From positions 1-32,630 of the forward strand of contig NZ_WRPM01000044.1 of the NCBI RefSeq assembly GCF_009758175.1: DNA of 32,630 nucleotides, given 5' to 3'. This document shows, piece by piece, positions 19,169 to 23,080 of this stretch. The notes below the pieces were generated by a model, which saw only the letters and a program-made list of their open reading frames with translations, did not search any database and had not been told where the DNA came from. A program made the position numbers and the translations under genes. This stretch comes from Nesterenkonia alkaliphila. GTDB lineage: Bacteria; Actinomycetota; Actinomycetes; Actinomycetales; Micrococcaceae. Positions within the stretch are counted from its first letter, which is position 1. Each line of letters starts with the position of its first letter.

Positions 19169-20097
19169 TGGTTGAGCCTGCTCTGGCAGAGACCGCCGAT
19201 CCGGCAGCCGACCAGGGCCACGTAGCACTTGATGACCAGGGCCAGGAGATCCGCTCTGGCTTCACCGTGAGTCTGGACGGCTTTGACGGGCCGTTCGACC
19301 TGCTGCTGGGACTGATCGCCAAGCGCAGGATGGATGTCACCAAAGTGGCACTGGCTGAGGTCACTGAAGAATTCATCGCCTATGTGCGCACTCTGGAGGC
19401 CCAACGCGCACTGGATGAGTCCTCCAATTTTGTGTTCGTGGCCGCCACCTTGCTGGATATGAAACTGGTGCAGCTGCTGCCCGGCTCCCAGGTGGAGTCT
19501 GAGGATGACATTGCTGCGCTGGAGGCACGGGACCTGCTTTTCGCCCGGCTGTTGCAGTACAAGGCCTTTAAGCAGATCGCTGATCAGATGGGTGCCGCCG
19601 CCGCGGAGAATGCCGGCCGGTTCGCCCGGCGCCCCGGAGCTCATCCCGATATGGCCAATCTGCTCCCCGAGTTGGTGTGGAACACCACCGCTGAGGATCT
19701 CAAAGCACTTGCCGAGCGGGCCTTGGCCCGCCGCCAGGCCGAACCCGATGAGGTGGGCCTGGCGCATCTGCACGCCGCAGCGGTGAATGTGCGCGCCGAG
19801 ATGGCCGCGATGACCGAGCAGCTGCGCGCCGCAGGCCGGTGCAGCTTCACCGAGTTGGTGGCTGGCGCGGAGAGCCGGCTGGTTGTGGTGGTGCGCTTCT
19901 TAGGCCTGCTGGAGCTCTTCCGAGACCGTTCAGTGGAGTTCGACCAGCAGGTCCCGCTCGGCGAGCTGCTGGTCACCTGGTCCGGGCAGGCCGGCACCTC
20001 CCAGGACGCCCTGGACCGGGCCGCTGCAGAGTGGGATGAAGGCGAGGGCGACGCAGCGGGGAAGAGCACCTCGGGTCAGGAGAGCAGAGATGGCTGA
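19168..20097 (+). CDS. scpA: Segregation and condensation protein A (kleisin)
   Basis: A 309-residue kleisin of the Smc–ScpAB complex. The N-terminal LDGFDGPFDLLLGLI signature is at ~36–50. An acidic/helical centre and the C-terminal winged helix (FTELVAGAESRLVVVVRFLGLLELFRDRSVEFDQ) follow. It starts at GTG 19168 with GGAGGGG 7 nt upstream. The tail is poorly conserved and polar. It is translationally coupled to both neighbours. Confidence 0.95.
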   Translation: MVEPALAETADPAADQGHVALDDQGQEIRSGFTVSLDGFDGPFDLLLGLIAKRRMDVTKVALAEVTEEFIAYVRTLEAQRALDESSNFVFVAATLLDMKLVQLLPGSQVESEDDIAALEARDLLFARLLQYKAFKQIADQMGAAAAENAGRFARRPGAHPDMANLLPELVWNTTAEDLKALAERALARRQAEPDEVGLAHLHAAAVNVRAEMAAMTEQLRAAGRCSFTELVAGAESRLVVVVRFLGLLELFRDRSVEFDQQVPLGELLVTWSGQAGTSQDALDRAAAEWDEGEGDAAGKSTSGQESRDG

Positions 20098-20758
20098 ACA
20101 ACCCAGCGGCAATTCCGGAGCGCAGGGCAACCCTGCCCTGGAGGAGGCCGGCTCCTCGCAGCTGGTCTCCCATGAGGACTATCTTGCCGCGGTGGAAGCG
20201 GTGCTGATGGTCGCGGAAGAACCGGTGAGCCCCGCTGAGCTGGCCACTGCAGTCAGCCTGCCTCAGCATCAGGTCCAAGCACTGCTGGATGAACTGCGCG
20301 CCGAGGCTGACGGGGTGACTGAGAACTGGCCCGGGGACGCCCCGGCCGGTGCGCCGCGGCAGCGCGGCTATGAGCTGCGCGAGGTGGCCGGGGGCTGGCG
20401 CTACTACTCCCGGGCCCGCTACGCGGAGCAGGTCTCGGCCTTTGTGCTGGGCGGGCAGACCTCACGGCTCTCCCCGGCGGCTCTGGAGACTCTGGCCGTG
20501 ATCGCCTACCGGCAGCCGGTGGCGCGCTCAGCGGTCTCCGCCATCCGCGGGGTCAATGTGGACGGGGTGGTGCGCACCCTGGTTCAGCGGGGCCTGCTGG
20601 ATACCGCCGGCACCGATCCGGTCACCGGGGCCACCCTCTACGTCACCACCGCGGAGTTCCTGGAACGGTTGGGACTGGACTCGATTGAGGACCTGCCCAA
20701 GCTCAGCCCCCACCTGCCGGGGGTGGAGGACCTTGAGGATGACGCTTCGGCAGTCTGA
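20090..20758 (+). CDS. scpB: Segregation and condensation protein B
   Basis: A 222-residue ScpB with two winged-helix domains: AVEAVLMVAEEPVSPAELA... near the N-terminus, and LSPAALETLAVIAYRQPVARSAVSAIRGVNVDGVVRTL in the second half. It bridges ScpA and Smc heads. ATG 20090 overlaps the scpA stop by 8 nt and has GGAGAG upstream; a longer frame from 20036 would overlap scpA much more. Past its stop, the conserved order to rluB is broken by the DUF559 gene and its flanking repeats. Confidence 0.94.
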   Translation: MAEQPSGNSGAQGNPALEEAGSSQLVSHEDYLAAVEAVLMVAEEPVSPAELATAVSLPQHQVQALLDELRAEADGVTENWPGDAPAGAPRQRGYELREVAGGWRYYSRARYAEQVSAFVLGGQTSRLSPAALETLAVIAYRQPVARSAVSAIRGVNVDGVVRTLVQRGLLDTAGTDPVTGATLYVTTAEFLERLGLDSIEDLPKLSPHLPGVEDLEDDASAV

Positions 20759-20774
20759 CCCCTCTGGCTGCTTC

Positions 20775-20854
20775 TCATGGGGTTATCGGGAAATCATGGC
20801 CCTATAGGTGCATGAAATGCAGATAGCTACATGACTACTGGCGCTGGGAGTGGC
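20775..20854 (+). repeat. Dyad-symmetric element, copy A (upstream of the DUF559 gene)
   Basis: Four 15-bp motifs (consensus CCKATAGSNNCATGA): two on the minus strand at 20775–20789 and 20794–20808, and two on the plus strand at 20801–20815 and 20820–20834. The inner pair shares the palindrome CCTATAGG (20801–20808). CATG boxes at 20776, 20795, 20811 and 20830 (spacings 19, 16, 19) are exactly symmetric around 20804.5. A GCGCTG-rich tail (to 20854) is also shared with copy B. Positions 20781–20854 match 22040–22113 at 62 of 74 bases without gaps. Confidence 0.9.
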
Positions 20855-20875
20855 GGAGGCTGAGCTTCTCTGAGG

Positions 20876-20895
20876 TTATCCACAGGGGTGTGGAT
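20876..20895. promoter_or_regulatory. DnaA-box-like TTATCCACA within a short hairpin
   Basis: TTATCCACA (20876–20884) is a perfect DnaA box. ATCCACA and TGTGGAT (20878–20884 and 20889–20895) form a 7-bp inverted repeat around GGGG, just upstream of the DUF559 gene. A single box does not make an origin; the hairpin may instead regulate the gene. Confidence 0.5.
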
Positions 20896-20924
20896 TGTCT
20901 CTGCAGAAGTTTCAGAAGCAGGCA

Positions 20925-22022
20925 ATGCTGGGGACTATGGATTCTCAACAGCCGGCAAGCCTGCTGCGCGTAGCGTGTCCTTTGCAGGATGGCAGCCATT
21001 CATCTGACGCTCTCTCGGAGGCTATGCGCCGCGGTAAGATGCTGCGGCTGCGCCGCGGCGTCTATGTGCCGGCAGAGGTATGGCTGCGGAGTCACCCTTC
21101 GGAACGCTACCGGCTCGCTGTTGCCGCCGAGAGCCTGCAGAACCCCAATGCCGTGTTCTGTCGTGAATCTGCGCTCAGCATTCACGGACTTCCGCTGCTG
21201 GCGGTGCCGCGGCAGATTCACCTTCGAGTCGCGAGCAGAGGGTCGGTTCGGACCAGTCGCCAAACTCCGCTGACGGGCTCCGTATCCAAGGCGGAATTCC
21301 TGCGGCGTGCCCGGCTGGCCGGAGTGATCGACGAGACCGAAGTTCCGCCCTATGCCTTGCGTGGATTCGACACTGCGCGGCATCTGGACAGCGGGGGCTT
21401 GACCCAGAGTGAGAAGCAGGGGTTGGATCTCCCAACTCCGGCGGCGGGATCTGAGGTCCAAGAAAATCTGGTGGTCAATGTGGAACCGTTGGCACTGAGC
21501 CTGGTTGATACCGCTGTGCGGTTACCGTTTGCCGGTGCTGTGGTCCTCCTGGACGCCGCGCTGCACGGAGCACCTGCCCGGGCTCCGCTGGATGTGGCCC
21601 AACTGGGAGAGATCGCAGATGTTCAGCTGAGCGCGCGCAGGCGGCAGTATCTCAAAAGGCTGCTCCACTTTGCGTCTCCACTTTCGGAGTCCCCCGGAGA
21701 ATCTCTGGCCCGGGTGCGGTTCCATGAGCTGGGTTTTGCTCCGCCACAGCTGCAGGTCACCCTGCAGGTCCACAATAAGGCTTACCGACTCGATTTCTGC
21801 TGGGAGGCGGTCGGAGTCGTCGTCGAGTTTGACGGCTGGTTGAAGTACCGGATGGAGAATTCGACCTTTGACGAGGTGTATAAGCAGGAAAAGATCCGTG
21901 AGGACGCCATTCGCAGTACCCGCCGAACCGTGGTGCGGATCTACTGGGAAGACCTGATGGAGCCGCACTGCAGACGATTGATTGAGCTGCTTACTCGTGC
22001 CGGAGTGCCCCGCATGGCATGA
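20925..22022 (+). CDS. AbiEi-like (type IV antitoxin) N-terminus fused to a DUF559/Vsr-like nuclease domain
   Basis: About 365 residues. The N-terminal ~100 residues have the AbiEi-like winged-helix pattern (AMRRGKMLRLRRGVYVPAEVW, then FCRESALSIHGLPLL). The C-terminal ~110 residues are DUF559, a PD-(D/E)XK fold related to Vsr. The conserved sequence begins SPGESLARVRFHELG, continues YRLDFCWEAVGVVVEFDGWLKY with putative catalytic D290 and E301/D303, and ends EKIREDAIR...VVRIYWEDL. No AbiEii toxin gene is adjacent. The start is uncertain: ATG 20925, ATG 20937 or TTG 20895, with weak ribosome sites for all. Base composition looks less GC-biased than its neighbours. It is inserted between scpB and rluB and flanked by direct repeats, suggesting acquisition. 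It could be an orphan defence gene, a DNA-binding autoregulator, or a degraded nuclease. Confidence 0.8.
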   Translation: MLGTMDSQQPASLLRVACPLQDGSHSSDALSEAMRRGKMLRLRRGVYVPAEVWLRSHPSERYRLAVAAESLQNPNAVFCRESALSIHGLPLLAVPRQIHLRVASRGSVRTSRQTPLTGSVSKAEFLRRARLAGVIDETEVPPYALRGFDTARHLDSGGLTQSEKQGLDLPTPAAGSEVQENLVVNVEPLALSLVDTAVRLPFAGAVVLLDAALHGAPARAPLDVAQLGEIADVQLSARRRQYLKRLLHFASPLSESPGESLARVRFHELGFAPPQLQVTLQVHNKAYRLDFCWEAVGVVVEFDGWLKYRMENSTFDEVYKQEKIREDAIRSTRRTVVRIYWEDLMEPHCRRLIELLTRAGVPRMA

Positions 22023-22033
22023 GCCCCTGGTTT

Positions 22034-22113
22034 TCATGTGGTTATCGGGAAGTCATGGCCCTATAGGTGCATGAAGGACCGATAGGTACATGACAGATAG
22101 CGCTGAGACTGGC
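22034..22113 (+). repeat. Dyad-symmetric element, copy B (upstream of rluB)
   Basis: The same architecture as copy A, shifted by exactly 1259 bp. Motifs are on the minus strand at 22034–22048 and 22053–22067 and on the plus strand at 22060–22074 and 22079–22093. CATG boxes at 22035, 22054, 22070 and 22089 are symmetric around 22063.5. It begins within 12 nt of the DUF559 stop codon and ends just before the candidate rluB −10. Confidence 0.9.
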
Positions 22114-22116
22114 CGG

Positions 22117-22122
22117 TAGGAT
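22117..22122 (+). promoter_or_regulatory. Candidate −10 for rluB, abutting copy B
   Basis: TAGGAT ends 7 nt before ATG 22130, with no Shine–Dalgarno sequence, so the message may be leaderless. The −35 region would fall within the copy B element, so a protein bound there could control rluB. Copy A has a diverged GAGGCT at the equivalent place. Confidence 0.4.
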
Positions 22123-22129
22123 GATCCGC

Positions 22130-23080
22130 ATGAGTTTTCAGGGTAAGCGCGGGCCCAGGAAGTCGGCACCGAGGGCCAACCGGGCCGCCCGTACCCCCAA
22201 ACCGGGCTCCGAGGGCGGGCCGTTCGCAGATGCTAAACCCGAACGGCTGATCTCCGCCCAGCCCAAGCCCACCAAGATCCGTGCGGACGAGGCCGAGGCC
22301 AACTTCCAGGCTGTGCACACCGAGGACGGCGTGCGCCTGCAGAAGGTCCTGGCCCAGGCCGGGGTCGCCTCCCGCCGAGTCTGTGAGGACCTCATTGCTG
22401 AGGGCCGGGTTGCGGTGGACGGCAAGGTCATTGTGGAGCCCGGGGTGCGCGTGGACCCGCAGTCGGTGACCATCCATGTGGACGGAGTCCGGGTCACCCT
22501 GGAGGTCACCCACCGATACGTGATGTTCAATAAACCTGCCAAGGTCATGACCACTATGCATGACCCCGAGGGCCGGCGCTGCGTGGGCGACTTCCTGGAC
22601 CGTCAGATGCGCGCGGCCCGTCTGGTGCATGTGGGCCGGCTGGACTATGAGACCGAGGGCCTGCTGCTGCTGACCAATGACGGCGAGCTCACCAACAGGC
22701 TCACCCACCCGCGCTACGAGGTCCCCAAGACCTACCTGGCCGAGGTGCAGGGTGAGCTGAGCGTCAAGACTGCCAAGCAGCTGCAGAACGGGATCGAGCT
22801 CGAAGACGGTCCGATCGCCGCGGACCGGGCCTGGGTGGTGGGCTCCACTGGAAACCGCACCATGGTGGAGATCACTCTGCACTCCGGGCGCAACCGGATC
22901 GTGCGGCGGATGCTGGAACATGTGGGCCACCCGGTGACCAGGCTGGTGCGCACCGCCATCGGCAAGATCGTCATCGGGGATCAGCCCCAGGGCACGCTGC
23001 GCGAGCTCGAGCTCCAGGAGATCGGGCACCTGCAGGATCTGGCCAGCGGTGCAGCGGCAGGGGAGGGCTCCCGTGGTTGA
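22130..23080 (+). CDS. rluB: 23S rRNA pseudouridine synthase, RluB/RsuA family
   Basis: A 316-residue protein with a basic, disordered N-terminal ~60 residues (GKRGPRKSAPRANRAARTPK), an S4 RNA-binding domain (~66–115) and a pseudouridine synthase domain. The catalytic D172 lies in GRLDYETEGLLLLTNDG, with later SGRNRIVRRMLEHVGHPVTRLVR. The expected target is U2605 of 23S rRNA (E. coli numbering). ATG 22130 is preferred to ATG 22121, which overlaps the −10-like TAGGAT. It overlaps tyrA by 8 nt. Confidence 0.94.
   Translation: MSFQGKRGPRKSAPRANRAARTPKPGSEGGPFADAKPERLISAQPKPTKIRADEAEANFQAVHTEDGVRLQKVLAQAGVASRRVCEDLIAEGRVAVDGKVIVEPGVRVDPQSVTIHVDGVRVTLEVTHRYVMFNKPAKVMTTMHDPEGRRCVGDFLDRQMRAARLVHVGRLDYETEGLLLLTNDGELTNRLTHPRYEVPKTYLAEVQGELSVKTAKQLQNGIELEDGPIAADRAWVVGSTGNRTMVEITLHSGRNRIVRRMLEHVGHPVTRLVRTAIGKIVIGDQPQGTLRELELQEIGHLQDLASGAAAGEGSRG

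Follow-up and report, generated by a model that had tools for sequence, protein, structure and literature searches.

Two palindromes bracketing a predicted nuclease gene in Nesterenkonia alkaliphila: a candidate REPtron-like mobile unit with an unrelated enzyme

The described systems closest in layout to the locus considered here are the REPtrons, in which, as far as the accessible text of the source goes, an enzyme gene lies between its palindromes and solo palindromes occur elsewhere (PMC3733652). With regard to the enzyme, the accessible parts of two further papers describe the MTES_1575 REase as a Vsr-fold REase (PMC3710099), the DUF559 domain as common in Vsr-like enzymes, and VsrA of Caulobacter as a PD-(D/E)XK protein with a DUF559 domain that is linked to cytosine methylation (PMC12907096). 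In a literature search whose scope left out bioRxiv preprints altogether and the majority of subscription journals, no listed paper connected palindromic repeats with genes of the DUF559 or AbiEi type.

The present analysis concerns a 32,630 nt stretch of the N. alkaliphila genome (hereafter, the window), in which a gene for a predicted AbiEi-like winged-helix and DUF559/Vsr-like nuclease is bracketed by two palindromes. The initial annotation knew of no named system with this layout, which overstates the case given the similar arrangement of REPtrons, albeit with another enzyme and another palindrome, in the portion of their description available (PMC3733652). A REPtron-like mobile system built on an unrelated enzyme appears to be the best reading of the locus, with binding, cutting and movement being steps that we infer from sequence comparison.

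The window locus and its protein

The upstream palindromic element, E1, occupies positions 20768..20854, and the downstream element, E2, positions 22027..22113, both on the + strand and delimited by sequence, repeat finder and alignment. E2 is a direct copy of E1, and together they form the longest direct repeat family that the repeat finder recovered in 20000-23000 (87 nt, 83 % identity, spacing 1259). Each is a palindrome of four half-sites, TCATG, TCATG, CATGA and CATGA, around a central TATA, with 19 bp separating the half-sites within each pair. Read from the sequence, those of E1 are TCATG at 20775-20779 and 20794-20798 and CATGA at 20811-20815 and 20830-20834, with the TATA dyad at 20803-20806; the same pattern recurs in E2 at +1259, the half-sites starting at 22034, 22053, 22070 and 22089 and the dyad lying at 22062-22065. 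The two direct dyad copies that the initial annotation placed around one AbiEi/DUF559-like gene are thus real, the spans given there being a sub-part of the full elements. To the left lies a gene that we take to be scpB (20090..20758, + strand) and to the right one that is presumably rluB-like (22121..23080, + strand), these product names coming from the initial annotation.

Within the own genome, BLAST with E1 or E2 (E ≤ 0.001 and E ≤ 0.1) revealed no places beyond these two. A covariance model of window-type elements gave nine match rows; the six listed are E1 and E2, each on both strands, plus two palindromes of greater divergence, on contigs C49 and C7, that carry another word. These latter elements (L322 and L323) resemble E1 and E2 in geometry but have an ATCAGG-like word, and no nuclease gene of that word was noticed in the own genome.

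The interval between E1 and E2 contains one long ORF on the + strand, taken here from an ATG as 20937..22022, with a TTG at 20895 as a possible alternative start (20895-22022). No second ORF of more than 171 aa is present in the interval, and there is therefore no room for AbiEii. Between E1 and the gene lies a DnaA-box-like motif, TTATCCACA (20876..20884, + strand, from the sequence). Searched on either strand, TTDTCCACA occurs in 45 of 81 upstream flanks within the genus, as opposed to 2/81 downstream flanks and 0/81 gene interiors, and in 13 of 67 upstream blocks within the order, against 0/67 downstream; its position upstream of DUF559 genes may reflect a promoter, an operator or a link to replication.

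The window protein yields no Pfam match at E ≤ 0.01 to AbiEi_4, DUF559 or MTES_1575, its match to AbiEi_4 (PF13338) being sub-threshold (E 0.018; 15.6 bits against a cut-off of 25). Amongst 51 aligned homologues, the window protein included, 14 match AbiEi_4, six DUF559 (PF04480) and two MTES_1575 at E ≤ 0.01, and a search of the same 51 against NCBIfam gave no match. Residues E255, D286, E297, D299 and K303, which we take to be catalytic residues of the PD-(D/E)XK type, are invariant in 51/51 of the aligned proteins; as expected, these acidic residues and the lysine fit a predicted active PD-(D/E)XK-type nuclease. A sequence search of the PDB found no match at E ≤ 1, and a structure model from a two-row alignment was unusable (mean pLDDT 38).

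Homologues are present in 28/30 genomes of the genus, with one to seven matches each where present (some being split pieces), in 100 of 198 genomes sampled from the order (E ≤ 1e-20) and in 27 of 296 sampled across the phylum (E ≤ 1e-15). The DUF559 proteins of loci L110 (G013) and L116 (G005) are nearly identical in the protein tree, with branch lengths of 0.008 and 0.057, and are closer than most pairs; a recent transfer between the two species is possible. L116 runs up to the end of its contig, and L035 contains a related fragment.

Matching palindromes beside DUF559 genes

Bracketing by matching palindrome copies is found well beyond controls in the genus, in the rest of the order and in the rest of the phylum. 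For the genus, 450 nt upstream of each homologous gene were compared with 300 nt downstream, a locus passing when its direct repeat score exceeded the 99 % point of mismatched pairs; 35 of 80 loci did so and 45 fell below the threshold, the set comprising 81 loci after omission of three short, weak matches, one of which 81 was too short for the flank test. Tests of the same kind, each with its own threshold, were passed by 45/67 loci from other genera of the order and by 16/23 from the rest of the phylum, where further orders and classes are represented. The order set consists of high-scoring matches rather than a random draw (68 taken, 67 usable), and the phylum set of 23 out of 26 new loci, the three omitted being two from the order and one from the own genome. 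None of 25 rluB loci passed, and amongst 21 window genes with enough flank the DUF559-like gene alone did so (0/20 for the others). The control maximum in the genus was 151, with a 99 % point of 32, because related loci were included in the control. When flanks were compared in inverted orientation 32/80 loci also passed, as is expected for palindromes. Furthermore, palindromes scoring more than 22 of 34 were present in 64 of 161 genus flank segments, whilst coding control segments reached a maximum of 22.

The internal arrangement of these elements was assessed in palindromes chosen by symmetry alone. A word repeated at an offset of 19 (at least 6/7 identical) was found in 53/125 arms in the genus, against 2.0 in shuffles, in 90/150 arms from loci of the order (2.2 in shuffles) and in 10/39 from loci of the phylum (0.6 in shuffles), these arm counts overstating the number of independent cases as arms and paired copies are not independent. 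Smaller peaks occur at an offset of 18 in the genus and of 20 in the order. The recurrent geometry consists of four occurrences of one word, spaced by 19 bp inside each arm and mirrored between arms, with the word itself differing between subfamilies. In one family of 20 copies (A3), outer half-site columns are on average 99 % identical and linkers 64 %. This difference, and seven pairs being broken in at least half of the 20 sequences, make a hairpin-only reading less likely for A3; other families nevertheless pair along nearly the whole arm, and in one family pair counts are barely above shuffles. A conserved TATA centre as a cut site is not proposed, with TATA lying within the central 12 positions in just 18 of 64 palindromes. 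One further element type (L308, L309, L316 and L319) has runs of A and of T at either extremity, and might additionally act as a bidirectional transcription terminator.

With regard to the pairing of element and protein, an element is shared by approximately 1 % or less of the 837 locus pairs below 50 % protein identity, by about one of the eight pairs at 50-60 %, and by 16/16 pairs at 60 % or above. All 16 of the latter also share outer flanking DNA, and are thus orthologues at one site, so that the comparison at this level is confounded. The window gene and that of G005, the nearest relative, form the only different-site pair above 60 % identity that was compared; they are 66 % identical and have recognisably similar elements. 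The suggestion that the element follows the protein across sites comes from this one close pair and from the best-match test at scpB-rluB solos described below. The elements of N. ebinurensis MD2 are identical to those of G005, of the same genus, over the 90-nt stretches compared.

Site histories, solo elements and other cargo

None of the 27 relatives with scpB next to rluB carries a gene of this kind at the site; outside this number are G021, where a contig end cuts the site, and G007, in which no match to rluB was found. The scpB-rluB interval of G005 contains one element but lacks the gene. The window gene pairs with that of G005 in the protein tree (100/93), both falling in a clade of six rows (100/98), and the five members other than the window gene lie near efp: proximity within 1.5 kb is confirmed for the genes of G005, G013 and G009, and those of G000 and G020 are placed about 1.6 kb away by coordinates. 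The G005 gene runs with efp, and the other four run against it. In 25 of 30 genomes the aroB-efp gap measures 38-159 nt, and therefore has no room for the gene. The window gene has probably moved, because it is nested in a clade whose other members adjoin efp. The interpretation in the initial annotation is partly borne out. Its view of the gene as cargo between two repeats is supported, the gene is absent from all 27 assessable relatives, and the single copy without a gene that was to be looked for is found in G005.

Dispersal was examined by BLAST for three families and by one covariance model. The element family of the G004 and G010 gene gives 18 and 19 match rows in these two genomes (14 and 13 places by hand count), and amongst the other 28 genomes of the genus a single weak match, in G016, which holds the next nearest homologue of the gene in the tree. 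The element of the own genome's second nuclease gene (L072) was found by hand count at six places in G000, at four in G005 and, weakly, at one in G023. Its word is present in the flanks of 0/7 DUF559 loci of G005, and the L072-type elements of that genome, on C46, C33, C1 and C48, are orphans lacking a gene of the same word, possibly left after gene loss.

Five relatives have a palindrome and no gene at scpB-rluB, and in four of these the best match amongst the 81 DUF559 loci belongs to the same genome (G013 and G009, and more weakly G012 and G020). For the fifth, G005, the window locus is the best match and its own locus the second. A covariance model built from G000 and G005 elements only was used to find sites in the other genomes. 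The initial annotation held that an element found everywhere without any link to DUF559 genes would speak against its reading, and this is mostly not what is seen: among the matches listed, 12 of 79 distinct sites have a DUF559 gene no more than 800 bp away, as against 0.24 expected, yet the remaining 67 lie away from such genes. By a rough ORF rule, 22 solos divide into 12 between tandem, eight between convergent and two between divergent ORFs, a set that includes orthologous pairs, one of which (L137 and L138) the rule places in different classes.

The elements also enclose genes of other kinds. At a site beside a gene that is presumably mgtC-like, element and cargo are both absent from G011, a single element is present in G008, G023 and G026, and one shorter variant in G003 and G018, whilst in G019 and G024 an SNase-domain gene lies between two direct elements and in G022 that gene is accompanied by one shorter element. 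Empty, solo-element and element-cargo-element states are therefore all present amongst relatives at this site, in line with the presence/absence polymorphism expected in the initial annotation, although at another site and with a different cargo gene. SNase-domain genes next to or between palindromes were recorded at loci L340, L341 and L342. At a second cargo site, the content differs between sister species: G008 (L348) has an ORF without Pfam match and G023 (L351) an MFS transporter gene. Within the bracketed DNA the two genomes match over 26 nt at most, whereas the flanks are 84-90 % identical. Elements are also clustered, with five pairs less than 5 kb apart among the 16 sites listed for G008 (0.39 expected) and three among the 13 listed for G023 (0.26 expected); in G008 one close pair brackets a DUF559 gene, and another, about 190 bp apart, has no gene between its members. 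The elements so delimit exchangeable segments, and not DUF559 genes alone.

Possible explanations and relation to known systems

We consider it slightly more probable than its converse that the gene together with its two palindromes makes up a single unit in a system of mobile repeats, with the palindrome as the cognate element of the nuclease. Such an element would present one recognition word four times at a constant spacing; elements are found solo or as a pair around the nuclease gene, and sometimes around other cargo. The winged helix would bind the half-sites and the nuclease would cut in or near the element, whereupon repair or recombination with another copy could insert, swap or remove the DNA between copies (E ↔ E-gene-E), the gene thereby spreading into sites that hold a solo element.

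The main rival is that the palindromes are passive recombination hot spots, i.e. terminator-like or REP-like intergenic repeats moved by other means, with the nuclease gene as one frequent cargo. Its best support comes from the bracketing of other cargo (the SNase gene, the MFS transporter and genes without Pfam match) and from orphan elements such as those of L072 type in G005; the 67 listed sites away from DUF559 genes, the A/T-run ends of some families, and the position of 20 of the 22 solos, which lie between ORFs in tandem or convergent arrangement, also accord with it. Passive repeats do not, however, readily account for DUF559 flanks lying far above controls in three nested samples, for a roughly 50-fold excess of model sites, among those listed, beside DUF559 genes, for one family being nearly confined to the two genomes that have its gene, or for the tendency of scpB-rluB solos to match the nuclease flanks of their own genome. 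In addition, Y1_Tnp, the sole transposase/integrase family searched, is absent from 29/30 genomes. We regard passive hot spots as an unlikely explanation, if one to be taken seriously.

Inverted repeats at the promoters of AbiEi genes are bound by the AbiEi proteins themselves, and the palindromes might accordingly be operators bound by the AbiEi-like winged helix, serving autoregulation and a small regulon; one copy is indeed upstream of the gene. The second copy lies directly past the stop codon, however, divergent ORFs flank just two of the 22 solos by the rough rule, and gene relocation and the cargo states are left unexplained, so that an operator-only reading is disfavoured and we judge it highly improbable. 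The same downstream copy and distribution of solos are unlike an operator, and speak against the duplicated control region considered in the initial annotation. Both domains, DUF559 and AbiEi, are encountered in defence settings, and the gene could alternatively be a passenger, such as a defence gene, within an insertion sequence or an array of integron-like cassettes for which the enzyme is encoded elsewhere. Other cargo is likewise bracketed, but the recurrence of the same enzyme family between elements of different words over a phylum speaks against this reading, which we judge more improbable still.

Taking the mobile-unit reading further, Actinomycetota may harbour a phylum-wide, undescribed mobile class, in which winged-helix/Vsr-like nucleases, each with a private four-half-site palindrome, would cut palindromes present as solo copies and have their genes copied there. 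The palindromes would thereby turn into docking sites where chromosomes acquire, exchange and lose the nuclease gene along with other genes. This broader proposal is tentative, and we hold it to be rather less probable than not. If true, it would provide a likely role for many poorly characterized AbiEi/DUF559 genes of Actinomycetota, a second, unrelated enzyme type for the REP-like way of life, and a mechanism by which individual genes located between core genes could be gained, lost or exchanged. Pairs of an enzyme and its private element, all of one recurrent geometry, are directly testable for binding and cutting.

With regard to other known systems, the AbiE type IV toxin-antitoxin shares the N-terminal AbiEi-like winged helix; the window locus differs in having no room for an adjacent AbiEii and in its fused nuclease-like domain. 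Free-standing homing endonucleases, including the Vsr-fold I-Bth0305I, resemble the locus in having a nuclease gene at sites vacant in relatives and in the spread by cutting and repair proposed here, whereas the target in this case would be a palindrome present at dispersed places, a copy of which would afterwards lie on either side of the gene. Integron cassettes with attC likewise place genes between imperfect palindromes and exchange cargo; here, unlike in integrons, members of one enzyme family have matching element words to their left and right. VsrA belongs to the same nuclease domain family but is tied to cytosine methylation, and the accessible text of its description contains no bracketing palindromes (PMC12907096).

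Membership of the RAYT family was rejected, as the own genome has no match to Y1_Tnp (PF01797, HUH) and within the genus such a match occurs in 1/30 genomes (G009), whilst five of 14 control genomes were positive. Within what the available REPtron texts describe, the predicted enzyme here is a winged-helix protein with a Vsr-like nuclease domain rather than an HUH tyrosine transposase, and the element spans about 65-75 bp with four half-sites, compared with 20-40 bp for the REP palindrome, which bears a GTAG or CGTC tag. Two to about 22 sites were counted per genome here. The likeness to REPtrons (RAYT/TnpA-REP with REP) lies instead in organization: in both, as those same accessible texts portray REPtrons, an enzyme gene is flanked by its palindrome, gene-less copies are dispersed between genes, and enzymes are, or here would be, specific to their repeats (PMC3733652, PMC8266576).
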